NCBI GenBank assembly: GCA_009829735.1
Contig: CM020618.1
Coordinates: 43,500,497-43,564,496, forward strand
Origin: Pyropia yezoensis
Lineage: Eukaryota; Rhodophyta; Bangiophyceae; Bangiales; Bangiaceae
DNA length: 64,000 nucleotides
Reading direction: 5' to 3'
Part shown: positions 16,231-64,000 of the stretch, one piece after another
How positions within the stretch are numbered: the stretch's first letter is position 1
Layout of the letters: each line of letters begins with the position of its first letter
Made by a program: the position numbers and the translations under genes
The notes under the pieces: model-generated
What the model was told of the DNA's origin: nothing
Database searches by the model: none
Seen by the model: the letters and a program-made list of their open reading frames with translations, nothing else

Positions 16231-16232
16231 CC

Positions 16233-16545
16233 TAACATAAGAATCTACAAAATCGACGAACCACCCCCCCTCAGTTCGTCAATTTCGCATGGTTCGTCAA
16301 TCGACGAACCGCCCCATATGGCCTGGAATCGCCACACCCCCCCCAGGTCGTCAATTTGGCCGGTTCGTCCACTCAGATCCGGAATCGACGAACCGCCCTT
16401 GACGCCCCCCTGGCGCGCATTCGACGAACCCCCCCCAGTTCGTCGATTTGGCCGGTTCTTCCTTTCCGCCCCCAGGCCCCCCCAGGCGCGCATCCGACGA
16501 ACCCCCCCTAGTTCGTCAATTTTGCCGGTTCTTCCTTTTGCCACC
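16233..16545 (+). repeat. E1 left-end subterminal hairpin repeats
   Basis: Just inside the left end, CGACGAAC and its complement GTTCGTCG/A alternate, separated by C-rich loops, giving several potential hairpins. A unit of about 65 bp (GGCGCGCATTCGACGAACCC then GTTCGTCGATTTGGCCGG) occurs twice here and three times in E2. The word GTCAATTTCGC also occurs in the E3 left end. Such subterminal repeats are typical binding sites for an element's own recombinase; that role is inferred. Confidence 0.7.
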
Positions 16546-17430
16546 CATCGTGCCTGTCCCCCCGCCTCCATTTATGCCACACCGCTTGTACCCCCGCCCC
16601 CACTTCCTCTCCCCTGCTCCTCCTGTCCGCGGCCCCATGTTGCCCGCTCGCGCATCCCCTCCCCCACCCTCGGCCCCCTTCCCCCCTCCCCTCCAGTACT
16701 TCCCCTCCCTTTTCCCTTCCCCTTTATCCTATGCACCCCAACCCGCCCCCTGCCCAAAATCTAGTGCCCATCCCCCCCCCCCCTTCCCTGGCTTCCCCCC
16801 CCCTTCTCACCCTTCCCCCACCCCCCCTTCCCCCTCCCCCCCCACCCCCTCCCCCCCTCCCATGCACTAAGGTAGAAATTACAGCCCCCACGTGGGCGCC
16901 TGTATCCACGCCCTTTTGCCTCCCCGATAGCCTGTCCTACTCGCCCCGCTCCCCCCATCCTCCCTTCATCCTCATCCAGCGTATCCACCTCCCCCTCAGC
17001 CTCTGACCACCGTCCCGCCCGACTGTCCCCTCCTCCAAAACTCCCTCACCGTCCTCTAGCCGTGGCCCTCCCCACTCGCACGCCCCCTCGCCCACAGACG
17101 ATTGCCACTTGACTCGCACGCCTCCCCGACCACGGACGCTTGGCCATAACCCTCTTTCTCTCCGCTGCGCCCACCACCACCTGAGAGGTACCCAATCACA
17201 CGCCCCCCCCTCCCAGGCGCACGTCTGATCCACCACAAAACGGTCGCCTCTTTGAACAACCCCCTCCATCTCTCCCGCCAATGCGCTCACGCGATAGCCG
17301 TCGTGGCATTCCCAGTAGCCGTTTTTCTTCCCGCGTAAAAAACTGCCGTCCTCTGCCCGTTTCGCCCACTCGGGGCGTAACGCCTGGGCCAACGCCTCCA
17401 CCCCGCAACGCACCGGTCCCGCGTCCGCGG

Positions 17431-17590
17431 CACAGTGGGCACACTGCCCCGCCCATAGCCTCTCTACCGACACAGTGGGCACACTGCCCCGCCCATAGCC
17501 TCTATACCGGCACAGTGGGCACACTGCCCCGCCCATAGCCTCTACAGTGGCACAGTGGGCACGCTGCCCCGCCCACAGCCTCTATAACAA
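17431..17590 (+). promoter_or_regulatory. Four 40-bp repeats and TATA-like box upstream of E1 helicase
   Basis: Four direct copies of a 40-bp unit (starts 17,431, 17,471, 17,511, 17,551) contain CACAGTGGGCACACTGCCCC and CGCCCATAGCCTCTATA. Inside the unit, CAGTG-GGCA-CACTG is an inverted repeat. The last copy leads into TATAAC at 17,583, 208 bp before the chosen ATG; the same spacing holds in E2. This looks like an upstream activating array plus core promoter. Conservation between E1 and E2 supports function but could be mere recent ancestry. Confidence 0.6.
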
Positions 17591-17790
17591 CCGTTACCAC
17601 TCCGTAGACTCTCTGTTGCCGGCTGGCTGGTGTGCGGCGTGTCCTTCTCTTCCCCCCACTCTGCCCATCCGCCCGCGTCCTCCTATGCCAGCCGCCCTGC
17701 CCTGGTCCTCCCCCGCCACCCGTCCGCCCGCCCCGCCGTCCCTCTCCACCCCCGCCTTTGCCTACCCGTCCCTCCCCCCCACTCGCTGCC

Positions 17791-20250
17791 ATGGCAGGCG
17801 AAGGCCCAGCCCGGCTCCCCCCATTCCCCCCCCTGCCCCTGACCGTTGTGCTCGCTGAGCGGGCAGCGACACAAGACGGCCCTGCACCCCCTCTGGCCCC
17901 TGTGCCAGCGCCTGCTCCGGTTCCGACTGGGCTGGTTGCGTGGCAGCCGGCGGCGCTCGTCATCTGTATGCCGTGCAAGACGGCCATCTATGACGGCACA
18001 GAGCTCAAGCACCACCTCGCCACCTCCCCCCACAAGGCCGCGGTGGCGCAAGCGCTGCAGGAGACTCCGCGGCCGGCTGCCCTCTCATCTGCCACCAGCT
18101 CTGTAGACGACTGCAAGGCGATGCTGGCCGCAGGCCCTCAGACGCCGGCGCAAAAGGCCGTCTCCGAGCGCTCCCTCAACTCTCCGTGGCCTGCTTCCTC
18201 GGCCGCGCCGCATCTGGCCCCGCTGCCGGGCCTGCCAACGTATAATGGCTACGTGTGCTACAACTGCAGGTCGGGCAACACGGACCTGCGGCAGCTGCAA
18301 AAGCAGCACACTGTCCACGGCGACGGCGCTCCACCCCTCGACGATGACCCGTTTGAGGAAAAGTGCGCCAAGGGCATCTACACCCTGGCCACCCTCCAGT
18401 CTCTGCAGCGTGGCAACAGGACCAGGCTCTACCCTGTGCAAGAGGTCTCCAACACCCCCCCCGCAGCGGCTGCCCCCGGCGCGCTGCCGACGGCGGCGAC
18501 CATGCCTCTGGACGTCTTCCTGGGCGGCGGCCCCCCCCCTGTCGACACTGGCGGCGGCACGGGCGGCAGTGCCGCGGCAGCCGGCCCTTCCTCTGTGCTT
18601 CCAACCTCTGATGACGCCACCGACGCCTCGGCCGGCGGCCTCATGCAAATGTTCCGCTTTGACGCGTCCCTGGCGGCCCTCCACTGGACGGCCGCGTCGA
18701 CCATGGAGCACTTTGGGCTGTTTGCCGCCCTCAAGACGACGGCTCCCCCACCCGGCGCACCCGCATACAGTTACGAGCCTCGTGGCTTGTTTTTCTTTGC
18801 CTCCCTCAAGGCGGCCGTCCTGGCGGTCTGCGACGGCGCCCTGTCCTTTGTCAGGGACCGGCGGCCCACTGTCGCCTCGCGGCTCCGCATCGGCAAGGCC
18901 ACTGCCGACACGGTGAGCCATCGCCCGTTCAACGTCCGCATCACCCCGCCGACGGTGAGCAAGTACGCGCGCGACACGGCCATCCTCCTCTACGTCTGCG
19001 TCGAGCTGGCCGCCCTGGGCGCCCGCACAGACACCGAGGTGCTGGAAGACGGCCGGCAGACCCCTGCCCTTTCCGCCGCTACCTGTGCGCTGGCTGCCAA
19101 GGTACGCCGTGCCTTTCGGGCAAAGGCACCTCGCGTCGTCCAAGTGGTGCGTGACAAGCGGGCGGCGCAGCCAGACTATGCCGCTGGGCAGGACGACGCG
19201 TCCCTGGTGGGCCAGGCGGTCCTTGCCGACGCCGTCTCTGCCCTCTTGCGGGGCATCTTCCACGAGGTCTTTGACCCCCGACCGCTGGCCGTCGGCGGCA
19301 GTGGCAAAACGCAGTCGGATCTGGCCCTCCTCATGCCCTTTCTCTCCGTCTTGTACCCGTCGGCGACAGCGGCCGCGCTGACGACCGCCGGCGGGGACCC
19401 CACGGCAGATACGGCCGCCCTGCATGTGAGCTACGTGGACGCGGGGAGCGCTCAGCACCTGGCGGGCGCCCTCATCTTTTTCACCTACATTGCCAACACC
19501 CTTCACCTGATGAAGGAAAAGGTCGCCACCGCGACCGAGTCGTACGCACAAATCGCCGAGCTGTCCAACCCGACGGCCGACACGGCCGCTGCCTACATTG
19601 TGCAGCTCTATGCGCACGGCGAGAGCATTGGGCGGTCCGAGCACCTGGCGCCCTCCTTTCTCCCCTGCGAGGACCCCGAACACCTTGTCGATGCCGTGCC
19701 GGGCGCCATTTGTGGCTCCCTCCTCACCCGCGGCGTCCACCTCAGCACGGTCACCCTGGGCGAGCGCGTCGTGGCCGCCCAGGCCCGCATGTATGACAAG
19801 GTACGGGAGCTCCTCTTTGGCTACGACCCCGAGCAGTCGTCCTTTTTCACCGACGCCCTGTCGTTGGTGGACGTGCCAACCCGCCAGGAGCCTGGCGTGT
19901 CCTTCCTCCAGATCAAGGAGAACCGCGAGACGGTGCGGCGCCTCCAGTCTCACCTTCTCACGTCTGGCGTCCTCGACTCGGCCGCCTGCCCCGTACGTCC
20001 GGCGTACAAGCGTGCAAGCGGCCCGCGCCGCCCGGGGGAGCCCGCGCGTATGGAGCTCGACCTGTCGGCCCCGCCTGTGGCGGTCAAGGGCAAGGCCCGC
20101 GTAGACGCGTGGCTCAAGCAGGTGGAGCTGCTTCGCGCCGACCTATGGGCCATCATGCACGTTGTCGGGGGCGCTCCCGCCCGTCAGACCGAGAGCGCGG
20201 CCATCTCCATCTGTGCCTCGATCGCCCGCATCCGACGGTCGCTCTTTATC
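17791..20250 (+). pseudogene. E1 recombinase-helicase gene, truncated after codon 820
   Basis: This is the first 820 codons of a gene nearly identical to the intact E2 copy, starting at GCCATGGCAGG. It keeps both N-terminal zinc-finger-like motifs and the long middle region, and ends at ARIRRSLFI where the E2 left end interrupts it. The run-on frame reads 56 foreign residues to a stop at 20,421. It lacks the recombinase-like catalytic boxes, the helicase and the Cys-rich tail, so it should not encode a working enzyme. No insertion or deletion separates it from E2 across 820 codons. The missing C-terminal part (HDGQVYIV onward) is not found elsewhere in the window apart from the intact E2 copy. 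Confidence 0.85.
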
Positions 20251-20251
20251 C

Positions 20252-20635: not shown

Positions 20636-21524
20636 CCCGTCGTGCCTGTCCCCCCGCCTCCATTTATGCCACACCGCTTGTACCCCCGCCCCCACTTCTT
20701 CTCCCCTGCTCCTCCTGTCCGCGTCCCTACCTTGCCCGCTCACCCATGCCTTCCCCCATCCTCTGCGCGCTTCCCCCCTCCCCTCCCAGTACTTCCCCTC
20801 CTCCCTTCACCCCTCCTCTTCATCCTGTGCACCCCTACCCGCCTCCTCGCCAAACTTCAGTGCCCAACCCCCCCCCCTCCTCCCTGGCCCCCCCCCCCCT
20901 TCCCACCCTTCCCCAGCCCCCCTTCCCCCTCCCGCCCCACCCCCTCCTCCCCTCCCATGCACTAAGGTAGAAATTACAGCCCCCTTGTGGGCGCCTGTAT
21001 CCACGCCCTTTTGCCTCCCCGATAGCCTGTCCTACTCGCCCCGCCCCCCCCCTCCTCCGTCCATCCTCATCCAGCGTATCCACCTAGCCCTCAGCCTGTA
21101 ACGACCGTGCCGCCCCACTGTCCCCTCCTCCAAAACTCCCTCACGGTCCTCTAGCCGTGGCCCTCCCCACTCGCACGCCCCCTCGCCCACAGACGCTTGC
21201 CACTTGACTCGCACGCCCCCCCGACCACGGGCGCTTGGCCATAACCCTCTTTCTCTCCGCTGCGCCCACCACCACCTGAGAGGTACCCAGTCACACGCCC
21301 CCCATTCCCAGGCGCACGTCTGATCCACCACAAAACGGTCGCCTCTTTGAACAACCCCCTCCATCTCTCCCGCCAATGCGCTCACGCGATAGCCGTCGTG
21401 GCATTCCCAGTAGCCGTTTTTCTTCCCTCCTAAAAAACTGCCGTCCTCTGCCCGTTTCGCCCACTCGGGGCGTAATGCCTGGGCCAACGCCTCTACCCCG
21501 CAACGCACCGGTCCCGCGTCCGCG

Positions 21525-21684
21525 GCACAGTGGGCACACTGCCCCGCCCATAGCCTCTCTACCGACACAGTGGGCACACTGCCCCGCCCATAGCATCTAT
21601 ACCGGCACAGTGGGCACACTGTCCCGCCCATAGCTTCTACAGTGGCACAGTGGGCACGCTGCCCCGCCCACAGCCTCTATAACA
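21525..21684 (+). promoter_or_regulatory. Four 40-bp repeats and TATA-like box upstream of E2 helicase
   Basis: Copies start at 21,525, 21,565, 21,605 and 21,645 and match the E1 array. TATAAC lies at 21,678, again 208 bp before the ATG. The third copy carries small substitutions. A pyrimidine-rich leader follows, as it does before most genes of these elements. Confidence 0.6.
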
Positions 21685-21885
21685 ACCGTTACCACTCCGT
21701 AGACTCTCTGTTGTCGGCTGGCTGGTGTGCGCCGTGTCCCTCTCTTCCCCCCACTCTGCCCATCCGCCCGCGTCCTCCTATGCCAGCCGCCCTGCCCTGG
21801 TCCTCCCCCGGCACCCGTCCTCCCGCCCCGCCGTCCCTCTCCGCCGCCGCCTTTGCCTACCCGTCCCTTCCCCTCACCCGCTGCC

Positions 21886-24800
21886 ATGGCAGGCGAGGGC
21901 CCAGCCCAGCTCCCCCCATTCCCCCCCCTTCCCCTGACCGTTGTGCCCGCTCAGCGGGCAGCGACACAAGACGGCCCCGCCCCCCCTCTGGCCCCTGTGC
22001 CAGCGCCTGCGCCGGTTCCGACTGGGCTGGTTGCGTGGCAGCCCGCGGCGCTCGTCATCTGTATGCCGTGCAAGACGGCCATCTATGACGGCACCAAGCT
22101 CAAGCACCACCTCGCCACCTCCCCCCACAAGGCTGCCGTGGCGCAAGCGCTGCAGGAGACCCCGCGGCCGGCTGCCATCTCGTCTGCCACCAGCTCTGTG
22201 AACGACTGCAAGGCGATGCTGGCCGCAGGCCCTCAGACGCCGGCGCAAAAGGCCCTCTCCGAGCGCTACCTCAACTCCCCTTGGCCTGCTTCCTCGGCCG
22301 TGCCGCATCTGGCTCCTCTGCCGGGCCTGCCAACGTATGATGGCTACGTATGCTACAACTGCAAGTCGGGCAACACGGACCTGCGGCAGCTGCAAAAGCA
22401 GCACACTGTCCACGGCGACGGCGCTCCACCCCTCGACGATGACCCGTTTGAGGAAAAGTGCGCCAAGGGCATCTACACCCTGGCCACCCTCCAGTCTCTG
22501 CAGCGTGGCAACAGGACCAGGCTCTACCCTGTGCAAGAGGTCTCCAACACCCCCCCCGCAGCGGCTGCCCCCGGCGCGCTGCCGACGGCGGCGACCATGC
22601 CCCTGGACGTTTTCCTGGGCGGCGGCCCCCCCCCTGTCGACACTGGCGGCGGCACGGGCGGCAGTGCCGCGGCAGCCGGCCCTTCCTATGTGCTTCCAAC
22701 CTCTGAGGACGCGACCGACGTCTCGGCCGGAGGTCTCATGCAAATGTACCGTTTTGACGCGTCCCTGGCGGCCCTCCACTGGACGGCCGCGTCGACCATG
22801 GAGCACTTTGGGCTGTTTGCCGCCCTCAAGACGACGGCTCCCCCACCCGGCGCACCCGCAGACAGTTACGAGCCTCGTGGCTTGTTTTTCTTTGCCTCCC
22901 TCAAGGCGGCCGTCCTGGCGGTCTGCGACGGCGCCCTGTCCTTTGTCAGGGACCGGGGGCCCACTGTCGCGTCGCGGCTCCGCATCGGCAAGGCCACTGC
23001 CGACACGGTGAGCCATCGCCCGTTCAACGTCCGCATCACCCCGCCGACGGTGAGCAAGTACGCGCGCGACACGGCCGTCCTCCTCTACGTCTCCGTCGAG
23101 CTGGCCGCCCTGGGCGCCCGTACCGACACCGAGGTGCTGGAAGACGGCCGGCAGACCCCTGCCCTTTCCGCCGCTACCAGTGCGCTGGCTGCCAAGGTAC
23201 GCCGTGCCTTTCGGGCAAAGGCACCTCGCGTCATCCAAGTCGTGCGTGACAAGCGGGCGGCGCAGCCAGACTATGCCGCTGGGCAGGACGACGCGTCCCT
23301 GGTGGGCCAGGCGGTCCTTGCCGACGCCGTCTCTGCCCTCTTGCGGGGCATCTTCCACGAGGTCTTTGACCCCCGACCGCTGGCCGTCGGCGGCAGTGGC
23401 AAAACGCAGTCGGATCTGGCCCTCCTCATGCCCTTTCTCTCCGTCTTGTACCCGTCGGCGACAGCGGCCGCGCTGACGACCGTCGGCGGGGACCCCACGG
23501 CAGATACGGCCGCCCTGCATGTGAGCTACATGGACGCGGGGAGCGCCCAGCACCTGGCGGGCGCCCTCATCTTTTCCACCCACATTGCCAACACCCTTCA
23601 CCTGATGAAGGAAAAGGTCGCCACCGCGACCGAGTCGTACGCGCAAATCGCCGACCTGTCCAACCCGACGGCCGACACGGCCGCTGCCTACATTGTGCAG
23701 CTCTATGCGCACGGCGAGAGCATTGGGCGGTCCGAGCACCTGGCGCCCGCCTTTCTCCCCTGCGAGGACCCCGAGCACCTTGTCGATGCCGTGCCGGGCG
23801 CCATTTGTGGCTCCCTCCTCACCCGCGGCGTCCACCTCAGCACGGTCACCCTGGGCGAGCGCGTCGTGGCCGCCCAGGCGCGCATGTATGACAAGGTACG
23901 GGAGCTCCTCTTTGGCTACGACCCCGAGCAGTCGTCCTTTTTCACCGACGCCCTGTCGTTGGTGGACGTGCCAACCCGCCAGGAGCCTGGCGTGTCCTTC
24001 CTCCAGCTCAAGGAGAACCGCGAGACGGTGCGGCGCCTCCAGTCTCACCTTCTCACGTCTGGCGCCCTCGACTCGGCCGCCTGCCCCGTACGTCCGGCGC
24101 ACAAGCGTGCAAGCGGCCCGCGCCGCCCGGGGGAGCCCGCGCGTATGGAGCTCGACCTGTCGGCCCCGCCTGTAGCGGTCAAGGGCAAGGCCCGCGTGGA
24201 CGCGTGGCTCAAGCAGGTGGAGCTGCTTCGCGCCGACCTATGGGCCATCATGCACGTTGTCGGGGGCGCTCCCGCCCGTCAGACCGAGAGCGCCGCCATC
24301 TCCATCTGTGCCTCGATCGCCCGCATCCGACGGTCGCTCTTTATCCACGATGGACAGGTCTACATTGTCCTGTTCTACCACAAGGGCCAAGTGCAGGGCC
24401 AAGGGGTTGGGCGACCCATTGCCCGCTTTCTAGACGCCAAGACGTCGGCGCTCGTCCTCCTCATCCTCACCCTCCTAGACCCGCTAGAGGCCTACATTGC
24501 ACGGGCCGTCGCCCCCACTGCGGGCGCTGGAGCAGCCCCTATGGACCGCAGCCTGCTTTTCCGCGACTCGCGCGGCGGGCAGCTGTCCGCGCGGCACCTG
24601 TCTACGGCCCTCGAGTCGAGACTCTTGGGCGGTGTCACGAGGCTCCCCATGGGCGTCCGCGTCTACCGCCAGGTCTCCGCCGCCATGGCCAAGGCCGTCA
24701 CCAAGGCAGATCTGCTGGCCGTCGCCTACGGAACCCCCCAAGCGGAGGAGGCAGACAGGGGCTCGGTCATGGAGCTGCAGAGCGGTCACTCGAGCCGAAC

Positions 24801-35765: not shown

Positions 35766-35850
35766 TGTTCGTACACGTTAAAGAATGTCGCCGCAATGTA
35801 TCATCGGTACCTGGGGCATGCACACAGGTGGACCCAGGATGGGCATCCCA

Positions 35851-45304: not shown

Positions 45305-45340
<36 letters not shown>

Positions 45341-53039: not shown

Positions 53040-53465
53040 CAGATGTTTCCCAGTCGGTCGTTCGGTGATGGGTCAAAGCAGTTATCGTAAGTGCGACTTA
53101 GTCGGACTTACATTTTTAAATACGACTTGACCGGAATTTTTCGAGACCATTTGGTTTTGGATTATGAGATCTGATTTATGCTCCCATGTGCTATGTTGGG
53201 GCCCTCACAGCGCGGGCCAATGAGATGCCTCTCGGGCTCTATAAATTTGGTTCTTGTCGGGTCCTCGTTTGCTTCTCAGGTCGTCATCTCATCCTCATCC
53301 GCCACACCCACTCCTTTGTACCCCGCTTACCATTGCCTTATCTGCCCCTCATTTTCCCTTTTTCACCTCGCTTGTCCTCCTTTTCTCCTACCCACGTTTT
53401 TTCTTTTCACGCCTTTTCCTCATACTTTCCCCTTTTCTTGCCTGGACTTCCAGCAGTTTTTCATC
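53040..53465 (+). promoter_or_regulatory. Promoter and leader of E3 ParB-oxygenase gene, TATA box at 53,240
   Basis: TATAAAT at 53,240-53,246 lies in the context GGGCTCTATAAATTTGG, about 220 bp before the ATG. It is followed by a long CT-rich leader. This is the clearest core promoter in the window. Confidence 0.6.
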
Positions 53466-56400
53466 ATGGCCCGGTCTCCCCGGAAGGCGAGCTCTCGTGG
53501 CCGTGGTCGCGGCGGTGGTCGGCGTGGATGCGGCGGCGTGGCTGCGCCGGTTGCTGACGGTGCAAGCGTTGGTGACTCTCCTGCTCGCGGTCGTGGTGGG
53601 CGTGGTCGTGGACGTGGCGGTCTGTCATCCCCTCGAGGTGGTCGCTTGTATTCCTCTCGTTCGCCATCGCCTCAACGGAGCGCTCCCTCGGTTGGGGTGA
53701 GCCATACCCAAGTCGCCGCCTGCGATGCGGCTGAGGCGGCCTTGCTTCTGCGCCCTCCTTCGGCTGCCAGTGAGTCTGGCGCCGAGTCTGGTGGTTCGTC
53801 TTGTAGCCGCTCTGCGTCCAAGAGCGCGTCCCGATCACGGGCAAGCCGTTCATCAGCCTCACGCAGCGGATCGGGCGAGTCGGGTTCCGGCGGCGGCTCT
53901 GACGAGTCTGGTTCAAGCAGGTCATCAGGCGTGTCTTCGAGTACTTCGGGAGAGGCACGTTCCCGCGGCGGCTCCGGAGAGTCAAGTTCAGCTGGTGCTT
54001 CGGGCGAATCCGGCTCCAGAAGTGGTCGTGGTGCGAGTGGGAGCGGAGAAAGCGGTTCTTCAAGGACGGGCTCGAGGTCTTCCTCGCCTCTTGTTCAGGC
54101 TTTCAAGCGATCCTCTGGCGATGTTGGGTCGGGCAGCCTTAGGCAGGCCCGCCTGCTGGTCGCGCCGTCGAAGGGCGCACCGGCTGCCGTCGCGGGCTCT
54201 TCATCGCCTGCTCGGCGAGGTCGGGTCGCCACACCACGGCGGCCACCGGCGTCTTCGGCTGCGGCATCTCGTCGGGGGCCGCAACTGAACAAGAACGTTT
54301 CCGTCTCCGTACGCGGGATCGAGTTCACCCCTGGCGCTTCGGGGTCCGTCGTTCAAACGCCGGGGTCATCTGTCTCGGCGGCGGAGCGTTTCGCCCGGAT
54401 TTACAAGGTGACCATGATCATCGGTCGGGTGCGAAACGTTCGTGTTTTGGTGCGATCTGTGCGCGACACGGAGATCGCCGACGTCAAGAGGTACATCAAA
54501 TCTTTTACCACGACGGGCTACGACTGGGCGCACGGTATGATCAAGGTGACCGAGGACTTCACACAAGACAATGACCGTGAGTTTGAACCGCTAGTGGTGG
54601 GCGAGGATGGCGTTTTGGAGGACAAGAGCGACCGCCATTACGTCACAGTCGACGGGCACCACCGACAGACGGCGTTGGTGACTGTGTTGGAGCGGGATCT
54701 TCCGAATGCTTCGGAAACCTGTCGGTACGCCCTCGTACAGCGTCGCGACGGCAAGCCAATGACAGAGACGGAAGTGCTGTCGTTGGGCTTGGACTCGAAC
54801 GAGTCGACGGTGCAGAGCAAGCTTATGGACACTGCCGACGTCGTCGTCTTCCTGACGCACTGGGTGCGAGGCAAGCACAACGAGAGGCGTCTCAAGCATT
54901 TGGCTGGCCTAAAGTTGGGCGTCACCAAGACAGGAGATCTCTTGAATGAGCTGCTCAAGGAAAAGATTGGCGGCTTGTGTAAGGACGACGGGACGATGGC
55001 GTACGGCGTCGCATCCATGCGCCGAATGCTCAACATTGGCTTGTTGGGGTTGGAGGACAGCGCTTCTACAAGGTACATGGTCGAGAAGCTGAAGGCGTCC
55101 AAGGTCAAGGATGGCTCGGACGGCTCGTTCGCTCTTGACACGCTTATCTCGCCCATCATGCTCTACGCCGAGTCAATTTACACGGACAAGGAAGCCGTGC
55201 GTCTTCGACTTCTCAAGATGGCGTGGGAGTATACGTGCCATCGCACGCCCGACAAGAAGGTTCGTCGGCTTGTCGCAGGCAGTGACGGCTCGTTCTACGC
55301 AAGCGCTGTGCTCTTCATCAAGTACGTCCAAGATGCAACCCTGAAAGTTGTCAAGCAAAAAGGCGGCACGCCCAGCGGAGTGCGGTCCCTGTGGTCGGGC
55401 AAGGGTAAGCAGCCAGCCGGATCTCCCGCTCGGCCAAGCGCTGTCCCTGCTGTCCCTGCAGAGCAGACTGCACCCGCTTCCGACGAGGCGTCTGCCCAGG
55501 CCGCGACGATTCACGCGTCCACAGGGTCACTGGACTTGCTGCAGCAGACCCGTCCGGGTGCGACCATGACGTTGGGCGACGAGCTGACAGACTTGTTTGT
55601 GAAGCACTACACCGAGGCGGGTAACGAGGCACCCAAGGCGGGGCAATCCGTGAGCAAGCTGGTGCTGGCGATGCAGTATCCGTTTGTGCTCAAGTACTTG
55701 CCGTCCTGGAAGAAGATGGTGGACGAGTTTATCGCGCCTCCTCCGCCGCCGCCGCCGCCGCCGGCCAAGAAGAAGCCGTCGAAGAAGAAGCAGTCCAAGA
55801 AAGGCGGCGGGAAGTCCAAGTCCAAGAAAGGCAAGAAGAGCACGACTGGAGGAGATGCAGGTGCTTCCACCGGTGACGCGCCATGTCACCCTGACGCGGG
55901 CGCTCCACCATCGGGTGGTGTCTCGCCAGGAACCGGCCTCGAAGCACAGCCTGGAGCCGCCGGCGCTGCCGGTGCTCATGGCGGTGGCGACGCGCAGACA
56001 GTGAAAGACGCGTCGGGCGGCGGCGAAGGCGATGGCGTCAAGGACAAGGAAGCTGGTGAAGCCGGGACCGCGGACAGCGTCGGTGATGGCGGCAAAGGCG
56101 GCGACGACGGGACGGGGAAGGACCCGCGTAAGCGAAAGCGGCACAGTGGTGTGGGCGGGGAAAAGCGGCGCAGCAAGCGATCCCGTCATCCTCCTCCGGA
56201 GCTTGGTGAGCTGGTAGCTGTTCCGACTGACCAGCAGCTTCGTGCGCAGCTGGTTCGCGGCATGTCGGTCCGCGCCAAGTCCCCGTTTGCTCGGGCGGTA
56301 CGTCGAGTGTTCGTCAACGGTCGTCGTCAAGGCCGTCATGACATCCGCAACCAGGTAGCTGAGAAGCCGTACGACGACACTGTTCCTCCGATCGTCGAGA

Positions 56401-58082
56401 GTCTTCACGAGCGAGCTGCGGCGAACCGGCGCAAGCTACTTGAGCCCCATTTCGGGGCTCCTGGAGTGCCCCCGCCCCCGGATCCCCCACTGCACGTCCG
56501 ACTTCCTCGCTTTGCGGCTCTGCTGCCGACGGAGCATCAGGGCCGCGACGTTCTACCTGGGGACGCTTGGAAAGACATCGACAAGTGCGTGTCTTTGTTC
56601 ATGGCGCAGCAGGGGGTCAAGCTGCTGACGGGCATGCCTGGTGTCCCGACGTCGCTGCCGGACGACGATTCGGGTGTTCACTCTCTTCTTGGAGGCGCTG
56701 CGTGCCTGGCATTTGCCAAGACCCTCGTGGAGTGCGGCTGGGTGATCATTGAGAATGCCGTGCAGGACGGCATGCCACGTCTTCTCCAAGGTGGACCTTC
56801 GAGCGTGGACGCCGTGCTGGACCATTATGTGCACTTGTTCCCAGGTGAAGCCGAGGTTGCAAAGGCAGCGGCTAGCCCGGGGACGAGAACAACACCTTCA
56901 GTATGGGCTCCCATTCACAACGTCGACACGGATTTGGACAAGGTGCATCTTGCGGACGGGCAAGGGCGATTTTCGGTGCCAGTCAAGATGGTGGCTTCCT
57001 CCGACGACGCTACGCAGTCATTCGTCTTCATCCGCAAACTTCACGCTGACGCCTGCATGGCCGCCATCGCCAACAAGATCTTAGAAGCCGTTCCTGCCGC
57101 CGAAGGTCGCTCAAGTGCCCCCCCGGTTGTAAGGACGCCCAAGACTGGGGCTCGCCTGCTGCTGACAACTGAGAACGCTGTGCGGCAGCGTCCTCACATC
57201 GACTCTGGGCTGCTTGAGGACAAGCTGCAGCAGGAGGAGATCAAGTCAGTCGAAGACGCTGGCGGCTCATTCACAGGGGCGGACAAGATCGAGCCAACCG
57301 AGGACAATGAAGTTCAGTTCGTTTCCGCCAAGAAGTACAAGATGCCGCTGTCCAAGAGCTTCTTTATCATGGCGTCCGGGAGGGACTCCTTCGTGTTGGC
57401 AGTGTGGCCAGGAAGCGTGCTTGCTCTACGGCGGATCGAGGACGGACACGTTGTGGACCGCACGCTTGTGAGCGAAGTCATTGAGGTCCCCAAGAACTCA
57501 ATACTTCTCTGCCGGAGCGACTTGGTGCACGCTGGGTGTGGAGCCGATGAAGACACCACGCGGCTGAACAAGGCGCCTGTTGAGCTTGCCTACGCGCGCT
57601 CCATCCGTTTGCACATGTACCTGCAGCACCCGCATCAAGCCCTCAAGGACGCCATCTTTCCCGTCAGCAGAGTGACGTTTGCGAGCAACGCCTCCCCGTC
57701 GTTGAGCGCCGTTCCCGCGGTCGATGGTGCAGACGCGCCCACTTCACGTGACGGAAAAGCTGGTGCTGCTGCGGACAAGCCCAGTTCTTTGCCGGATGAA
57801 AACGAGGACGTCGACATGTCCGACGTCGTCGGGGGCGAGGTGGAAAGCTCCGAAGAATCGTCATCCAGCTACGAGGTCTCTGAGGATGAGACCGATGTCA
57901 AGGCGGCTGACGACAAGGGTCAAGATGCCAAGGAGTCCGATGCCATGGAAGAAGATGGCGGAGATGACAATGATGACGTCGGCTCTGCCAAGGATACAAG
58001 TGTCAACGGAGAAGACGAAGAAGATGACGGGGGGAGCAACGTAGGTGGGGACGGTGAAGATTCTGAAGGCAAGGATGCCTAG
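53466..58082 (+). CDS. Large ParB-like / 2OG-Fe(II) oxygenase-like protein, E3 copy (1,538 aa)
   Basis: The start ATCATGGCCCG at 53466 aligns with the other large copies; the frame is open 96 codons further up through the leader. Regions: GRG/RGG-rich N-terminus (1-60); Ser/Gly/Arg-rich disorder to about 290; ParB-like domain about 310-450 (IKSFTTTGYDWAHGMIKVTE, HYVTVDGHHRQTALVTVLE with D396, KPMTETEVLSLGLD); helical region to about 760; Lys-rich stretch and Gly/Ala/Asp-rich linker; a basic nuclear-localisation-like cluster near 886-905; oxygenase-like domain about 1230-1400 with RPHIDS (H1244, D1246), RSDLVHAG (H1355) and IRLHMYL (candidate R1381); and a strongly acidic tail. HxD...H...R is the 2OG-Fe(II) dioxygenase site. 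The substrate is unknown. Palindrome C flanks it on both sides, matching the E4 copy's relation to palindrome B. It is intact. Confidence 0.72.
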   Translation: MARSPRKASSRGRGRGGGRRGCGGVAAPVADGASVGDSPARGRGGRGRGRGGLSSPRGGRLYSSRSPSPQRSAPSVGVSHTQVAACDAAEAALLLRPPSAASESGAESGGSSCSRSASKSASRSRASRSSASRSGSGESGSGGGSDESGSSRSSGVSSSTSGEARSRGGSGESSSAGASGESGSRSGRGASGSGESGSSRTGSRSSSPLVQAFKRSSGDVGSGSLRQARLLVAPSKGAPAAVAGSSSPARRGRVATPRRPPASSAAASRRGPQLNKNVSVSVRGIEFTPGASGSVVQTPGSSVSAAERFARIYKVTMIIGRVRNVRVLVRSVRDTEIADVKRYIKSFTTTGYDWAHGMIKVTEDFTQDNDREFEPLVVGEDGVLEDKSDRHYVTVDGHHRQTALVTVLERDLPNASETCRYALVQRRDGKPMTETEVLSLGLDSNESTVQSKLMDTADVVVFLTHWVRGKHNERRLKHLAGLKLGVTKTGDLLNELLKEKIGGLCKDDGTMAYGVASMRRMLNIGLLGLEDSASTRYMVEKLKASKVKDGSDGSFALDTLISPIMLYAESIYTDKEAVRLRLLKMAWEYTCHRTPDKKVRRLVAGSDGSFYASAVLFIKYVQDATLKVVKQKGGTPSGVRSLWSGKGKQPAGSPARPSAVPAVPAEQTAPASDEASAQAATIHASTGSLDLLQQTRPGATMTLGDELTDLFVKHYTEAGNEAPKAGQSVSKLVLAMQYPFVLKYLPSWKKMVDEFIAPPPPPPPPPAKKKPSKKKQSKKGGGKSKSKKGKKSTTGGDAGASTGDAPCHPDAGAPPSGGVSPGTGLEAQPGAAGAAGAHGGGDAQTVKDASGGGEGDGVKDKEAGEAGTADSVGDGGKGGDDGTGKDPRKRKRHSGVGGEKRRSKRSRHPPPELGELVAVPTDQQLRAQLVRGMSVRAKSPFARAVRRVFVNGRRQGRHDIRNQVAEKPYDDTVPPIVESLHERAAANRRKLLEPHFGAPGVPPPPDPPLHVRLPRFAALLPTEHQGRDVLPGDAWKDIDKCVSLFMAQQGVKLLTGMPGVPTSLPDDDSGVHSLLGGAACLAFAKTLVECGWVIIENAVQDGMPRLLQGGPSSVDAVLDHYVHLFPGEAEVAKAAASPGTRTTPSVWAPIHNVDTDLDKVHLADGQGRFSVPVKMVASSDDATQSFVFIRKLHADACMAAIANKILEAVPAAEGRSSAPPVVRTPKTGARLLLTTENAVRQRPHIDSGLLEDKLQQEEIKSVEDAGGSFTGADKIEPTEDNEVQFVSAKKYKMPLSKSFFIMASGRDSFVLAVWPGSVLALRRIEDGHVVDRTLVSEVIEVPKNSILLCRSDLVHAGCGADEDTTRLNKAPVELAYARSIRLHMYLQHPHQALKDAIFPVSRVTFASNASPSLSAVPAVDGADAPTSRDGKAGAAADKPSSLPDENEDVDMSDVVGGEVESSEESSSSYEVSEDETDVKAADDKGQDAKESDAMEEDGGDDNDDVGSAKDTSVNGEDEEDDGGSNVGGDGEDSEGKDA

Positions 58083-58513: not shown

Positions 58514-59475
58514 GATGAGTAGTGCTACTCGTGGAAGTCCATGATGAGTAGCAGTACTCGTCGCGTCGTTCTACCCGATTGCTTTTGGTATTTCGAGATT
58601 TTGTGATTTCGAAACCCGTCAACGGACGAGTAGCACTACTCGTCGAGAGGGAATGGCAAGAAAAGGAGCAGTGCTGCTTGTCAACAGAGGTCTCATATCG
58701 AGAAGAGCGTCTCGGTGACGTCATTCGACGAGTAGCACTACTCGCCAAGTGGGACGGTCGAGAAAATGAGTAGTACTACTCGTCAACTCAGAATGCTTTA
58801 TATCGAGAACTGCTTCTTGCTGATTTCACCCGACGAGTAGCACTACTCGTTCACAGAGAATGACAAGAAGGACAGTTGTGCTACTCGTCCAGAGAGAATG
58901 TCTCGGATCGAGAAGAGATGCTGTGTGATGTCACCCGACGAGTAGTGCTACTCGGCCAGAAGGGATCATGCAAGCACGCGTCGTGCTTCTGGTCGATAGC
59001 GAGTGTTGGATTGGGGGAATATACAAGTCGGTCACCTCTGTTGACGAGTAGTGCCACTCGTTAACATGGAAGCACTCTAACAGTTGTGCTACTCTCAGAT
59101 AGCGAAGTTCATAACGGGAGTGCAGTGCAATTTTGTTATGTCACTCCACAAGTGGTGCTGCTGATCATGAGTCAGCGTTTCCAGGACGTCGAGGTCCCTT
59201 TTTGGACGACGAGTGCCATTTGTGAGCAGTGCCGTTTGGCCTTGTTCTTCCTCTTCTTTCTTGCAAGTCGCCATCATCCTCCCCACATATCCTGGAGCGG
59301 CGATGAGTAGTGCTACTCGCCTGGTACCGTTCGCGGCATTGTACGGCAAATTTTCTGCAAAAGGTTCTCTCGCGACGAGTTGTGCTACTCGTTTGTCGGT
59401 TCCGAGAAACTGTTCTACTTTGTGGTTCACTTCCTTGAGAGTTTTTCTATGTCCGACGAGCAGGGCTACCTGTCA
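58514..59475. repeat. Palindrome C cluster 2 (about 13 copies)
   Basis: About thirteen copies lie between the ParB-oxygenase and methyltransferase-SET genes. Full copies include 58,625-58,644 (CA centre); near-full copies start at 58,727, 58,832, 58,937 and 59,043. Degenerate ones lie near 58,544, 58,767, 58,873, 59,083, 59,301, 59,375 and 59,457. CA-centred and TG-centred copies are mixed, in contrast to cluster 1, which is mostly TG. Spacing is irregular, roughly 30-220 bp. Confidence 0.85.
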
Positions 59476-59819
59476 TATGGCATGATTTGTTCCAGTCTTG
59501 CTGTCGGTTTTCCGCCATAATTATGTATTTAGTCGGGACTTACTTGTTCTTGAAGGCCAATTACTTTCTGATTTATGATTTGATTTATATAATCTTTTAC
59601 ACAGCTCTTTGGTGTCCTGTCTGTGGTCCACATTTGTGCGTAAATATGGTCGATCAGGTTGTCGATGTTGGCTTGGCGGTCTGTTACGCCAGTCGGCCAC
59701 CTTTTGGCCATCGTTCCTCGCCTGATTTTTTCCTTTCCTTCCCTCCGTCGTCCCCGTTTGCCCTTGACCGTGTCACTGTCGTGTCGCAATATTTGTCGTC
59801 TTCCGACATCACTATCCTC
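59476..59819 (+). promoter_or_regulatory. Leader of E3 methyltransferase-SET gene
   Basis: AT-rich just after the palindromes, then pyrimidine-rich from about 59,690. The frame is open through this leader from 59487, giving a hydrophobic N-terminal extension that I consider untranslated because the E4 copy has no counterpart. An alternative start at 59487 or 59646 cannot be excluded. Confidence 0.4.
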
Positions 59820-62800
59820 ATGGGAGGGCCGTCAACTGCTGTTGTTGTTGATGTTGTCACCTCATTGGCTGAGCGTGGTTTTCGCGCATTTCTGGACATG
59901 CGGTCGTCTGATGTCGGGGTCTTCCCTACGTCTTGTGTACTCCTGTGTCTCAGTGAGTTACGCGACGTGTACTTCCACTGCAATGCCATCGCGGATGCTG
60001 TTGATCGCGAAGGTTCCGATTTTTCGGTTCTGCGTCTTGAAGACGCGTCATGGGAAGCTGTTCGGTTTTGGATTGTATCGCATGTCCGTCGTGTCCCTGG
60101 GACTGAGGTCGGGACTTCTTTGTCGCGGGAGCAAGAGTTTGGACCTGGGCTATCGCGGAGCGTCATCGTCAAGATTTCTCGTCGGACGGAGTGGCTTGTC
60201 GATAATCGTATCGAACGCGTGTATACCTCCCTTTGGCAGTTGAAGCGGTTTATCGCAGTGCCGAGTGCCCCTAGGGGGCTTGATGGCATTTTTTTGCTGC
60301 GTTCAGGGTGTGCTGGCTTTGCGGATGGACCCGGCAGCGTGTCGGGCGTCGGTGTCGATGTTGACGACGTGCTGCATGATGACGACGTTTCAAGGGTCGT
60401 GAATGTGTTGGCGGTGTCAGCGGATTCACGACTCGCTTCTCTGGACGGACGGGCGTGGCAGGTTGTATTGGCGTTGTCAGGCCAGCAGGCAGCGCTTGAA
60501 GACCTCATTGTCTTTGCGCGCTCGCACTTCCCCGCTTTGTCGTCTTCAGCCGAGCAGGAGGCTTCCTTGGTGCGTGGTTTCCCTGCTGGCCCGGCAGCGG
60601 TTGGAGAGCTTCGTCGGTTTGCAGCTGATGACCTGGGGAACATGATCGCTTCCTCAGCTGGACAGGGTTCTCCTGCGCCCACACACCCGGTCAAGCTCCA
60701 CCATGAGCTCCCGGCGGACGTTCTCCTCCGTGGGGTCCTTGAGGCCTGGCCTGATGATGACGGCTATCGCGCTCACTGCGCGAGGCACGGCGTGCCGTCA
60801 ATTGCGGCGTTGACGCCGTTTCAAGTCGTTGTTTGGCTGTCCGCTGTGTGTGGTCTTGGCCGGCAGCCCGCGTCCGGCAGCAAGGCCGATCTCTGGCGGC
60901 ACGCTGTGTTGCTGAGGGGTGTCGTATACGACGTGATATCTGGCTTCGACGTGGTCGCTCGCAGTGTTGGCTTTTCTTCGATCGAGTCCATGGTGGCGCC
61001 CTATCTCTTGTGGCATGCCAAGGAGTGCGAGTTCTTGTCGCTTGCGCGCCCTGAGGACGACGATCTGTTCGCGCCTGTGAGCCAAGGCGGGAATCTGTGG
61101 CATGCTGCTGGACCTGTCAGGCGCTCCTCTGCGGCTGTAGCTGCAGACGTGCTGTCTCGGACGCCGGCGGCCAACAAGCAATTGCGTGTTGTTGCACACC
61201 TGCTACACCTGCACCTCTACTGGTGTACGCGCGTCGACCGTCTTGATGGGGAGCCCGCGCTGGTGGATCTTCTCACTGTTGCCCGCAAGCGGCCCTCGCG
61301 GGCTTCGACGACGACGACTGATGAGGATGGTGACGCGTCGTCCGATGTTGTCGTACGGGTGCCCAGCGACCCTGGCAGATCGTCGCAGTCCCGCAAAGGG
61401 AAGGAGCCGGTCCGCGTTGACCGCCGGAGGAAGCCTCTTTCCGGTCGTATGTCTGTCGCGGATTATCGACCTCCGCGTTGGTCTGGCGACTTGACTGAGG
61501 TTCCGCAGGTTCTGAAGTCCGTCCTGGCCGGTCTTTCGGCTTTTAAGCGGGTACCTGTGACGTCTGGGGGAGCCTTGAAGGTCGGGATCGGACCCCGCGG
61601 TAGCCTGCGGTCGAGGCTGTGCGCCCGCGGCGCGATGCGGGCTTCTGGTGTTGACGCAGAGCTTGCCGCGGGTTCCCGGCGTGGTATGTCTCCTGCCTCG
61701 CCTGACCAGGCGGCTGTGCCTGATATGGGAACCGCTTGGTCAACGGTTACTCGCGCGATGCAACATGTCGCGCAGGTGCACGTTTGTCCATTTCAAGACC
61801 TCATGACCGTCCACGACGAGCTTTTGCAGCAGCAAGAGCAGGCGTTGATCGAGTCCCGCGGCGATGGTCGGTTCGGGCGAGCGGTGGCGCAGGGTCAGGC
61901 GGCGACTTCTGTTCCGTCGCAGTCCATCCCGCGCTTTCTCACCGGCCAAGTGCAGCTGATCTTGACCGATCCGCCGTATAACATCCGTCGGGACGCCAAC
62001 CTGCCGCAGTCTGCGCACGACATTTTGACTGAAAGTCAGATGCTGAGGTGCGCTAACCTGTTTATGTTGCTGCTTCGCCCTGGTGGTCACCTTTTGGTGT
62101 TTTGCTCCTCGGCCCAGCATCCTGAATGGGTACGAGTCCTTCGAGGCCTGCGGGATCGTGCTAAGCGTGGCGCAAGGGACGGGACGAGCGCCTTCGCGGT
62201 CGACGGCGCCGCACTCGTGACGATCAAGGACCCCCACGCTATTGCCACTGCGCGGCGGAGCTCAACGAACCTGACCAACAAGACCGAAATGGTCGTGCAT
62301 GCCACTCGGTGTGGCGCATCCGCGCAGGAGGCGTACGAGATGGTGAACTACCGCACGTTTAACCGTGTACCGTCGCACTTCCTGGCCCACGACAACGTCA
62401 TTGACAATGTCCGTCCGCCCGGTGCGTCGGAAGTGGTGTACCGCGTCGAGGCGGGCTCCCGCCAATGGATACGCCCGGAGCAGAAGGCTATCTCGTTGGG
62501 ACAGGAGTTGATTGAGCGGTTCTCCCAGTGCGGGGACCTTGTTGTGGACTGTTTCGCTGGCACCTGCTTCGTAGCGGCGGCATGTCTGCGCCTGCCACTC
62601 GGGCAGTACCGGCGAGTCGTATGCTGCGACTCTGATGCTGACGTCATCCGCGCGGCTCTTCCACGTCTTCGCCGCGAATTCATCGAGCAGGTGATCGCTG
62701 GTGGATACGCGAACTTCCCTAGTGTGGGGGACGACCCGTCCGTGGTCGCGGCGGCGCATATGGTGCGGAAGCTTGCACCGGTCGTTGTGAACGTCGGGCG

Positions 62801-63776
62801 TGGAGAGGAAGATGTCCCTCGTCTCGCCCCTCCCCTTCCCCCATTTGACGCTGACTGGACTCCCCCTGCCGGACGGCCGTGTCACTCTGCTCTACCTCTG
62901 TCCGTCATTCAGCTGCTGGCGAGCAGATGGGCGCGTGCTGCGGACGAGGAGCGTGTTGGGCGTGAGAGTTTTCCCTCTGCCCCACCGCCCGGCCGAGATA
63001 TTGCTGCTGCGGTGCTGGCCCTGGCAAACAGCGCGGTTGGCGCTTGGCCGCGCAAGTACCAATGCGCTTTATCTACCGAGGATGGGACGGCACTGCGAGA
63101 GCATGCGGCGGCAGAGTTGGGTCTTTTCTTGGCCACCTCAGGGCTCGCCGGTGGAAGTGCTGGGACGGGGGTCTTTGCGGCGCGGCGATTTCCTGCCGGT
63201 GTCGTTGTGGCTCCCTTTTTCGGCGCCATTATCTACACGGATCTGGGTGTCAAGCTGAACCGCACCGTTCGGTACGCGTCGTCTGTTCTTGGTTCATATG
63301 GGCCCACGGCGCAAGAGTGCTCCGAGCGAGCACTGGCGGTTTCTGTGCGGAAGTCGAGCGCGAGTGAAGGGCGACGTGTGCATGTTACCGAAACCGACAA
63401 TTGTTCGGAAGACTTTACGGTGTGGATTGTGCCCTCAGTCTGCTGCGTGGCGGGGTACGTCAACGACTGCACGGCCGTTTCCAAGGTCGACCAAGCTGCC
63501 GCCGCGTCGTCGTCGCATGCCATCCCGCGTGCTCACGCCAACGTGGTCATCCAAGTGTCGCCCAAGGTGAGTGGTGACGATCTTACCATTGACGACTTGC
63601 TAGCGGTGGACGCCGTTCAGCTCGTTGCCTGTCGGGATATATCCCCTGGCGAGGAGTTGGTAGCATGGTATGGGACCGAATACGACTTTCTACACGATGA
63701 GGAGGTGCGGGGTGGGCGCGCTTCTGGTGGGCGGTTGGTGAGTCGGAGCACTCCGCACACTTTCGCTGGGGTGTAG
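59820..63776 (+). CDS. Beta-class DNA methyltransferase fused to SET domain (intact, 1,318 aa)
   Basis: Predicted to methylate DNA at adenine N6 or cytosine N4 and, through SET, a protein lysine, probably on chromatin. The start at 59820 (CTCATGGGAG) was chosen because residues after it align with the E4 copy (ELRDVYFHCNAIADAV against DVRDAYLSTLLQTGRAV). Residues 1-700 are an unassigned helical region with a short disordered patch. The methyltransferase has motif IV LILTDPPYNIRRD (D717), HATRCGASAQEAYEMVNY, WIRPEQKAISLGQELIERF and motif I DLVVDCFAGT (near 905), in permuted beta-class order. The SET domain (about 1110-1305) begins GTGVFAARRFPAG, has YVNDC (N1215) where NHS is usual, and ISPGEELVAWYG (Y1284). 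The usual SET His is replaced by Asp, which is also seen in other divergent SET proteins, so activity is plausible but unproven. No pre- or post-SET Cys clusters are present. Confidence 0.8.
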   Translation: MGGPSTAVVVDVVTSLAERGFRAFLDMRSSDVGVFPTSCVLLCLSELRDVYFHCNAIADAVDREGSDFSVLRLEDASWEAVRFWIVSHVRRVPGTEVGTSLSREQEFGPGLSRSVIVKISRRTEWLVDNRIERVYTSLWQLKRFIAVPSAPRGLDGIFLLRSGCAGFADGPGSVSGVGVDVDDVLHDDDVSRVVNVLAVSADSRLASLDGRAWQVVLALSGQQAALEDLIVFARSHFPALSSSAEQEASLVRGFPAGPAAVGELRRFAADDLGNMIASSAGQGSPAPTHPVKLHHELPADVLLRGVLEAWPDDDGYRAHCARHGVPSIAALTPFQVVVWLSAVCGLGRQPASGSKADLWRHAVLLRGVVYDVISGFDVVARSVGFSSIESMVAPYLLWHAKECEFLSLARPEDDDLFAPVSQGGNLWHAAGPVRRSSAAVAADVLSRTPAANKQLRVVAHLLHLHLYWCTRVDRLDGEPALVDLLTVARKRPSRASTTTTDEDGDASSDVVVRVPSDPGRSSQSRKGKEPVRVDRRRKPLSGRMSVADYRPPRWSGDLTEVPQVLKSVLAGLSAFKRVPVTSGGALKVGIGPRGSLRSRLCARGAMRASGVDAELAAGSRRGMSPASPDQAAVPDMGTAWSTVTRAMQHVAQVHVCPFQDLMTVHDELLQQQEQALIESRGDGRFGRAVAQGQAATSVPSQSIPRFLTGQVQLILTDPPYNIRRDANLPQSAHDILTESQMLRCANLFMLLLRPGGHLLVFCSSAQHPEWVRVLRGLRDRAKRGARDGTSAFAVDGAALVTIKDPHAIATARRSSTNLTNKTEMVVHATRCGASAQEAYEMVNYRTFNRVPSHFLAHDNVIDNVRPPGASEVVYRVEAGSRQWIRPEQKAISLGQELIERFSQCGDLVVDCFAGTCFVAAACLRLPLGQYRRVVCCDSDADVIRAALPRLRREFIEQVIAGGYANFPSVGDDPSVVAAAHMVRKLAPVVVNVGRGEEDVPRLAPPLPPFDADWTPPAGRPCHSALPLSVIQLLASRWARAADEERVGRESFPSAPPPGRDIAAAVLALANSAVGAWPRKYQCALSTEDGTALREHAAAELGLFLATSGLAGGSAGTGVFAARRFPAGVVVAPFFGAIIYTDLGVKLNRTVRYASSVLGSYGPTAQECSERALAVSVRKSSASEGRRVHVTETDNCSEDFTVWIVPSVCCVAGYVNDCTAVSKVDQAAAASSSHAIPRAHANVVIQVSPKVSGDDLTIDDLLAVDAVQLVACRDISPGEELVAWYGTEYDFLHDEEVRGGRASGGRLVSRSTPHTFAGV

Positions 63777-64000
63777 TAGGGTTTGGGCCGTGATCAGAGA
63801 CATAGTGTATTTGACCATAAACGGAGGAAGGGGCGGAAGAACGGAAATGTATGTCGCGCACAAAGGAAGCAACCTGCAAGGATTGTGTACGAACGGGCAC
63901 ATTGCGATCAGTCAGACGTAGGACTCGTCACGGTTGGCGCGGATACTGAGATTGCCAGTGCGGAGCAACATGGTCTCTGGCGAAGGCCAAGTGTCAACGG
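63777..64000. other. Downstream end of window
   Basis: About 220 bp after the methyltransferase-SET stop. No repeat, element end or gene is recognised here. Confidence 0.4.

Follow-up and report, generated by a model that had tools for sequence, protein, structure and literature searches.

The 64,000-nucleotide stretch of Pyropia yezoensis DNA analyzed here (the window; C1:43500497-43564496, C1 being contig CM020618.1, in an assembly of 107.5 Mb and 11 contigs) carries four units on the plus strand, two of which begin at an exact left end inside a gene of the unit before. Our preferred reading, held tentatively and at a little short of even confidence, is that these are nested copies of a composite DNA element family that lies mainly near P. 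yezoensis chromosome ends and is added there by end-stacking. A unit would run from a fixed left end (5′-CCTA...) through an OrsD/RecQ-type helicase gene (HEL) and a ParB-like gene (PO) to a methyltransferase-SET gene (MT), with an iterated motif in the gaps.

Four units, two of them joined at exact left ends to the unit before

The first unit, E1 (positions 16231 to 20249), consists of the left end CCTAACATAAGAATC, a leader, and the first 881 residues of a helicase open reading frame (ORF). It is truncated by E2, whose left end, CCTAACATACGAATC, lies at 20250 and which runs to 33999, immediately before an assembly gap of 500 N (34000-34499). The downstream part of unit A follows at 34500-47369, and unit B (also called E4) extends from its left end, TGCCCTAAGGTAAGAATATAC, at 47370 to the end of the window at 64000. 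Owing to the first N gap and a second one of 500 N at 49233-49732, the start of unit A falls outside the window and the E4 helicase gene is broken. The E1 helicase matches residues 1-881 of that of E2 with 95.9% protein and 94.6% DNA identity, and the match ends at 20250; thus, the E2 left end interrupts the E1 helicase gene. A 40-bp sequence repeated four times precedes the helicase gene in both leaders (17428-17586 in E1 and 21523-21681 in E2, plus strand). In the same way, the left end of unit B interrupts the methyltransferase gene of unit A, MT_A (43522-47379, plus strand), where the SET region begins, so that SET is retained only in MT_B.

Units A and B share one gene order (helicase, palindromes, ParB-like gene, palindromes, and methyltransferase). 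Unit B spans no less than 16.6 kb, and the space outside its three genes is divided into pieces of 1.0 to 1.4 kb. E2 and unit A belong to separate lineages. A second E2 copy, 99.5 to 99.6% identical, was found at the C1 end (L002 and L003), and the E2 lineage reconstructed by overlap would comprise HEL, PO0, a PO fragment, PO_C, PO_E, and MT_E over about 26 kb before it is cut by E4, a length that is arithmetic on near-identical C1 and C3 pieces, not one continuous sequence. An earlier reading of the window, made from its letters alone (the sequence-only reading), had described four units in one orientation, the same order in two of them, exact left ends within interrupted genes of the previous unit, and a size of at least 16.6 kb; all of these points were borne out.

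The same left ends recur against other flanks

Three families of exact left ends (D, E4, and E2-type) recur against different flanks, more often than expected by chance. Element D carries a helicase of the lineage seen in unit A; its left end abuts PO_C at L004:220 and, elsewhere, MT_E at L014:4213, and these filled sites read CTTCAAGACCCTATGTATATTC and GATCTCGACCCTATGTATATTC. The corresponding unfilled sites, CTTCAAGACCCTAGTCATCC and GATCTCGACCCTGTTGTCG, are present in L007 and L008, and comparison of the two states indicated that the junctions share GACCCT with both targets. A genome-wide search with the D left-end pattern (at most 2 mismatches) returned 10 places, versus none for the reversed control; their first base is C in 3, A in 4, T in 2, and G in 1. 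In nine of the 10, a helicase core follows at a distance of 4985 to 5064 bp, one core being shared by two of the places, and two (C1:84588 and 59668), to judge from their coordinates, mark the point where another D helicase gene is cut off. The E4 left end was found at two flanks, MT_A (47370) and MT_E (L008, reverse, 6336), and the E2-type left end at three places (16231, 20250, and L026:714), the last of which is about 430 bp past an MT_B copy. The E2 target has only CC in common with the element at the junction.

All seven junctions read show CCTA/CCCTAA-like starts and no telomere-repeat array. We note that these starts resemble the published telomere unit, TTAGGG (PMC3594237). A (CCTAA)n telomere was considered and rejected as the wrong unit in comparison with the published one, and an origin of the left ends as remnants of an older chromosome end was likewise rejected, since CCCTAA would lie on the wrong strand.

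Each lineage carries its own iterated motif

Four unit lineages (A, B, E2, and one on C7) each carry a repeated motif of their own between the genes. In unit A, the palindrome GTGTTTATAGTACTATAAACAC lies in the HEL-PO gap (35847-35886) and again in the PO-MT gap, which has three unit-A palindromes at 109-bp spacing (42388-42640) and one more at 43233-43254. Unit B has CGAGTAG(YR)CTACTCG and near variants in both its HEL-PO gap (52041-53039) and its PO-MT gap (58514-59315). The E2 lineage carries GTTTCAAAGCAGTACAAAAC on the plus strand, with 8 sites at 4 mismatches or fewer in the HEL-PO0 gap (28096-28444) and 6 more at 31679-31957. In the C7 unit, TTCCGTAGTACTACGGAA occupies the PO-MT gap, where the core TAGTACTA occurs nine times, eight of them with the arms CCG/CGG. 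The center TAGTACTA is common to the A, B, and C7 motifs, and the arms differ.

Units A and B have two gaps each, and these hold 2, 5, 2, and 1 palindromes versus means of 0.05 to 0.11 in 200 first-order shuffles; for two of the gaps, counts as high as those observed also arose in some shuffles, and 3 of the 10 palindromes are weak or unrelated to the family motif. The count of the unit-B palindrome over the whole assembly is the stronger test. It has 26 perfect places, every one beside a PO_B copy, in four regions (C1:1.7348-1.7425 Mb, C1:43.5526-43.5594 Mb, C3:29.309 Mb, and C3:29.3617-29.3624 Mb), and with at most 1 mismatch it has 55 places versus 7 for the reversed pattern, the best 50 of the 55 all falling in those four regions. 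The E2 motif (again with at most 4 mismatches) has 69 sites in the window, L003, L007, L008, and L014, sequences that are partly duplicate copies, versus none for the reversed motif; all 69 lie in gaps and point along the element. A fixed center with lineage-specific arms is what would be expected of a binding site evolving with an element-coded protein, and a GTAC-centered palindrome would suit symmetric amino-methylation by MT.

The three proteins

The helicase of E2, HEL_E2, is a plus-strand ORF of 2089 codons (21703-27969; first ATG at codon 62) with an OrsD domain (about 22048-22401) and a RecQ-type helicase domain of the DEAD kind (about 25216-25695; profile E value of 1.1e-22 to RecQ5). 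OrsD exceeds the Pfam cutoff in both E1 and E2, and no OrsD match was obtained in the jgi homologues P0011, P0012, and P0013. Between OrsD and DEAD, from about 24268, a series of motifs (RQTE, YHK, YRQ, and GHS..TA...YA) was aligned in red-algal homologues; by eye, we take it to resemble that of tyrosine recombinases, and the histidine of HxxR is replaced by R or Q in the red-algal HEL proteins. Any tyrosine recombinase activity of HEL, read from these motifs, is putative. Unit A retains the tail of its helicase, HEL_D (35082-35753, plus strand), and HEL_E4, of which the C3 end (L008 and L009) carries a more complete copy, occupies 48392-51864 on the same strand. The dN/dS between the E1 and E2 helicases is 0.32 (34 synonymous and 30 other changes over 821 codons), and the long frames are intact. 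Beside an E4-like copy, HEL query residues 443-561 are matched twice more (C1:1744890-1745921), a local duplication.

Of the ParB-like proteins, PO_A is encoded by an open frame of 1748 codons (36952-42195) and PO_B, homologous to it at both ends, by one of 1635 codons (53175-58079), both on the plus strand; E2 contributes a short related frame matching both, PO0 (28594-29802, plus strand), and a further PO-related fragment (30756-31244, plus strand). PO_A matches ParB-like partition families in PHROGs (E values of 2.1e-4 and 0.0046) at about residues 369-447. The Pfam matches of PO are weak (GmrSD_N, 0.049, and DndB, 0.16), and we take both families to be members of the ParB superfamily. A C-terminal HxD...H...R pattern, recognized by eye, is kept in PO_A, PO_B, P0007, and P0009, and its distal part is missing in P0008; the pattern suggests a 2-oxoglutarate/iron oxygenase in the PO C terminus. 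A profile search of the Protein Data Bank with PO gave no match. The relative P0007 (source lgn) is 67% identical to PO, and the distant PO P0009 and HEL P0011 may share one 27,741-base jgi contig.

In MT_B (59439-63773, plus strand), an N6/N4 DNA methyltransferase domain (about 61950-62648; E value of about 5e-10) is followed by a SET region (about 63162-63674; E value of 3e-4) that scores 21.5 bits, just below the cutoff of 22.4; MT_A holds the same methyltransferase and breaks off where SET starts. Relatives of MT reach 81% and 81% identity (source lgn) and 73% (P. vietnamensis). For two internal MT C-terminal pairs, dN/dS values of 0.81 and 0.89, with few changes, are near neutral. Profile searches, which the sequence-only reading had proposed, agreed with its helicase, ParB, and methyltransferase assignments, left SET just under threshold, and returned nothing for its recombinase and oxygenase labels, which stay unconfirmed.

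Helicase copies gather at scaffold ends, and PO-MT pairs are also dispersed

Across the assembly, we found 74 matches to the HEL core, 104 to the oxygenase-like end of PO, and at least 66 to MT. The last were grouped by us into at least 32 copies (32 of 440 MT candidates were scored), and all three lists were compiled by hand, fragments of a single gene being either combined or entered without the second fragment. Among merged HEL matches on C1 to C3, 15 of 25 are within 300 kb of scaffold ends, a zone that makes up 1.7% of the sequence. The 25 include two weak entries (C3:2682275 and C3:17125007) that may be host RecQ, without which the count is 15 of 23, and they leave out the C7 match and E1, whose helicase stops near the start of the query piece. 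The copies point outward in 13 of 15 cases within 300 kb and in 18 of 20 within 2 Mb; since neither weak entry lies within 2 Mb of an end, these counts do not change without them. The two inward copies belong to outermost stretches bounded by N gaps. The C1 end itself is 27.6 kb beyond the window, inside another helicase gene and without telomere repeats.

A PO gene on the same strand lies no more than 8 kb upstream of 26 of the 32 listed MT copies, versus none downstream and none on the other strand; the pairing holds for all 8 MT copies within 2 Mb of ends and for 18 of the 24 internal ones. HEL, in contrast, occurs within 25 kb upstream of 4 of the 32, all among the 8 near-end copies. For the MT copy at C1:43546538, one of these four, the entry refers to HEL_E2, which lies 20 kb away and belongs to a different lineage; the copy's own HEL_D tail was too short to be listed. 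Thus, the three genes do not always form one element. The sequence-only reading had joined them in a single mobile element; a fixed left end, signs of mobility, and the PO-MT linkage support that claim, and the rarity of HEL beside MT does not. It had also reasoned that dispersal of the three genes as single copies without common boundaries would speak against it, and we looked for this arrangement and did not find it.

The internal PO-MT copies are a second, dispersed family with different surroundings and without this helicase. Six internal MT copies are about 95 to 97% identical in DNA over 0.3 to 2.2 kb at and after the MT end, and four that were followed further are homologous over most of 7 kb; no HEL was present in the 8 kb upstream of one dispersed copy. 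Members lie at C2:7.53 Mb, C2:12.17 Mb, C1:32.66 Mb, and C3:25.75 Mb (L027 to L038). A leader of about 330-bp units precedes PO in one copy and follows MT in four, after which further long frames occur. Long terminal repeats around these copies were considered and rejected, the repeats being this leader running into PO. Upstream of one dispersed copy is a frame (L037:3854-4699) with a RING-H2-like CSICLEE. A further PO-like group (C1:21507689, C2:28309080, C1:28785969, C2:13901093, C1:34848804, and similar) matches at about 48 to 51% over query residues about 290 to 420, with intron-like match spacing and no adjoining MT among the copies listed.

A model of end-stacking and the evidence weighed against it

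We propose that a new copy would attach to a chromosome end that is exposed or broken, its left end joining a site with which it shares a few bases (from CC to GACCCT) and the DNA beyond being lost. The 3′ side of the unit would then face the telomere, and a later copy could repeat the process on the earlier one. The helicase protein, perhaps with recombinase activity, may drive the addition. PO or MT might bind the private iterons. MT would write methylation on DNA, and perhaps on histones, and PO would read and perhaps erase it; together the two could maintain a chromatin state peculiar to the copies of the element. True telomeric location and the chemistry of transposition are both unproven.

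Several observations weigh against this reading. On the protein side, a ParB-like PHROGs match was obtained in one of the four PO-family proteins scanned and in none of PO0, P0007, and P0009; the oxygenase-like end has no match in Pfam, PHROGs, or NCBIfam; no recombinase profile of Pfam matched the HEL proteins scanned; and the structure models of HEL and PO are poor (pLDDT of 38 and 33). As to the unit as a whole, HEL was found within 25 kb upstream of none of the 24 internal MT copies, and TAGTACTA-type palindromes were absent from L037 and L038, two pieces that lie upstream of one member of the dispersed PO-MT family. As to location, HEL copies also occur 0.76 to 1.75 Mb inward from the ends, 2 of the 20 within 2 Mb point inward, and 6 of 8 end-side HEL clusters are purely outward, the other 2 being mixed. 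Segments that are 96 to 100% identical recur in differing orientations at the right ends of C1 and C3 and the left end of C2 (L003, L004, L006 to L009, and L014 to L016), so that the HEL copies are not independent. Telomere repeats were absent from all scaffold ends, an assembly search for (CCCTAA)3 finding them only inside scaffolds, and the CCCTAA of the left ends is oriented wrongly for a remnant of an older telomere. Since Hi-C and optical maps were used to join 660 contigs into the scaffolds (PMC7423979), some of the placement and orientation at the ends may be in error. A further 524 contigs are reported as unplaced, seemingly outside the 11-contig assembly, and missing flanks may sit among them. 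Finally, a contig break precedes the right end in each insertion, namely, the N gap at 34000 for E2, the N at the window end for unit B, the scaffold end for D in L004, and an N gap in L015 for D in L014, so that the absence of a right end there carries little weight.

A possible but rather unlikely alternative is a two-ended Crypton- or Starship-like tyrosine-recombinase element that is excised as a circle, integrates at a CCT core, and is nested by chance, its right ends being unsampled in a fragmented assembly. Right ends hidden by contig breaks would suit it, as would the aligned recombinase-like motif series, the variable base just outside the D left end, and the 6-bp GACCCT common to both D targets and the junction, which recalls the 4- to 6-bp terminal direct repeats described for Cryptons (PMC3212892). 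Against this stand the lack of a recombinase profile match, of a usable fold, and of the HxxR histidine, and the E2 target, which shares only CC. BLAST of the extracted sequences found no interrupted gene that resumes beyond an element. Each D target has a right-hand flank that is present at a single place in the assembly, the unfilled copy, with no second occurrence for the filled site, and none of the helicase matches corresponds to the remainder of HEL_E1 (about 95% identical to E2). Nor would such an element predict an orientation bias. The sequence-only reading had called for a search of the rest of the assembly; recurrent left ends and two unfilled sites were found, and no right end.

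Alternatively, the helicase units could be host subtelomeric repeats of the Y′ or telomere-linked-helicase type that owe their spread to ectopic recombination or to break-induced replication, with PO-MT as an unrelated captured mobile module. The combination of OrsD with RecQ close to chromosome ends, known from UTASa/UTASb of Ustilago (PMC10532341), near-identical segments shared between ends, and PO-MT pairs inside chromosomes without HEL all fit this account. We nevertheless consider it improbable, for recombination would not place the same precise left end against numerous unrelated flanks, and in units A and B a single private palindrome occurs in both the HEL-PO and the PO-MT gaps.

It is less probable still that the end location and orientation, though not the element, are a scaffolding artifact in which repetitive contigs were parked at ends, an idea compatible with the other readings; N gaps within the arrays and scaffold ends without telomere repeats would agree with it, and the left-end joins sit within N-free stretches at several places. 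Very unlikely is an integrated plasmid- or virus-like replicon whose ParB-like protein and palindromes form a parS-like partition or episome replication system: PO_A does match partition families, and iterons do lie beside PO genes in the four lineages examined, but iterons precede MT too, no polymerase, capsid, or viral hallmark was seen among the proteins scanned with Pfam, and no PO or HEL relatives were found in IMG/VR (by a few peptide patterns, with MT not scanned).

Relation to known elements

We found no published description of this gene set, most subscription journals being outside the search and Repbase not being searched. In bdelloid terminons and in Drosophila HeT-A and TART, copies pile up at chromosome ends in a single direction, and the older ones are truncated. 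The Pyropia units likewise stack in one direction, mostly outward near scaffold ends, and their older copies are truncated; unlike in those systems, it is the 5′ end, not the 3′ end, that joins the older copy, and the junctions lack telomere repeats. No reverse transcriptase was found among the long proteins scanned with Pfam, the right part being unseen and short frames not scanned. The sequence-only reading had named Cryptons, Starships, and terminons as comparisons, and terminon-like stacking fits better than either of the others, save for the lack of a reverse transcriptase in the proteins scanned. With Cryptons, the units share a motif-level recombinase resemblance and a short core in common with the target at the left end; they differ in their RecQ helicase, two large extra genes, undiscovered right end, and putative recombinase fold. 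Like Starships, they are large and multigenic with a possible recombinase, but the host is a red alga rather than a fungus, left ends only were found, and DUF3435, presumably the Pfam label of the Starship captain, gave no match when HEL_E2 and the PO and MT proteins were scanned.

The closest relatives, in our favored view, are the fungal subtelomeric helicase elements, which agree in helicase and, apparently, in place and not in gene set; the gene set and the iterons appear to be new. Fungal telomere-linked helicases with RecQ and OrsD lie near telomeres (PMC10532341), and in Mycosphaerella, subtelomeric RecQ repeats are accompanied by a subtelomeric repeat family that contains a methyltransferase (PMC4522978). 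As these sources describe them, TLH, UTAS, and Y′ elements resemble the Pyropia units in their RecQ-type helicase, OrsD, apparent position near chromosome ends, and many near-identical copies. The Pyropia unit differs in adding the ParB-like and methyltransferase-SET genes, private iterons, and a nested fixed left end, and telomere repeats were not seen. A bacterial-type amino-DNA methyltransferase in a eukaryote recalls N4CMT of bdelloids; compared with N4CMT as presented in PMC8885841, MT is fused to SET, multicopy, and part of a repeated unit with its own iterons.

Were the end-stacking model true, a multicellular red alga would rebuild chromosome ends by DNA elements without a reverse transcriptase, and telomere-linked helicase elements, here with accessory genes, would reach beyond fungi. 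It is conceivable, if doubtful, that the units form a new eukaryotic class of DNA-built chromosome ends, made of 16- to 26-kb units joined by one fixed end through an OrsD/RecQ-recombinase-like helicase, each lineage marking itself by private iterons under a pair of ParB-like oxygenase and methyltransferase-SET proteins, for epigenetic identity or partition. The private iterons offer a testable case of a mobile element with its own writer of DNA (perhaps histone) methylation and dedicated target sites. The model, if true, would also help to clarify how subtelomeric RecQ helicases serve the elements in which they are found.

Other features of the window and the assembly

Upstream of E1, a 99-bp tandem repeat of 17.8 copies (1824-3592) lies within a minus-strand frame of 1414 codons (1130-5374); its 33-residue period is ankyrin-like by length only. 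An 882-codon frame at 10927-13572 has a P-loop-like GRGKTEA, and a 792-codon part of it gave no Pfam match at 0.001. A run of 5,171 N (C1:43564497-43569667; L001 and L002) begins exactly where the window stops. Tandem repeats of about 1.55 kb are present close to the C1 left end (L017:6698-10000 and L018), and short (CCCTAA)n tracts lie inside scaffolds, for example, at C1:17367815, C2:9447264-9447316, and C2:28201667, versus none at scaffold ends.

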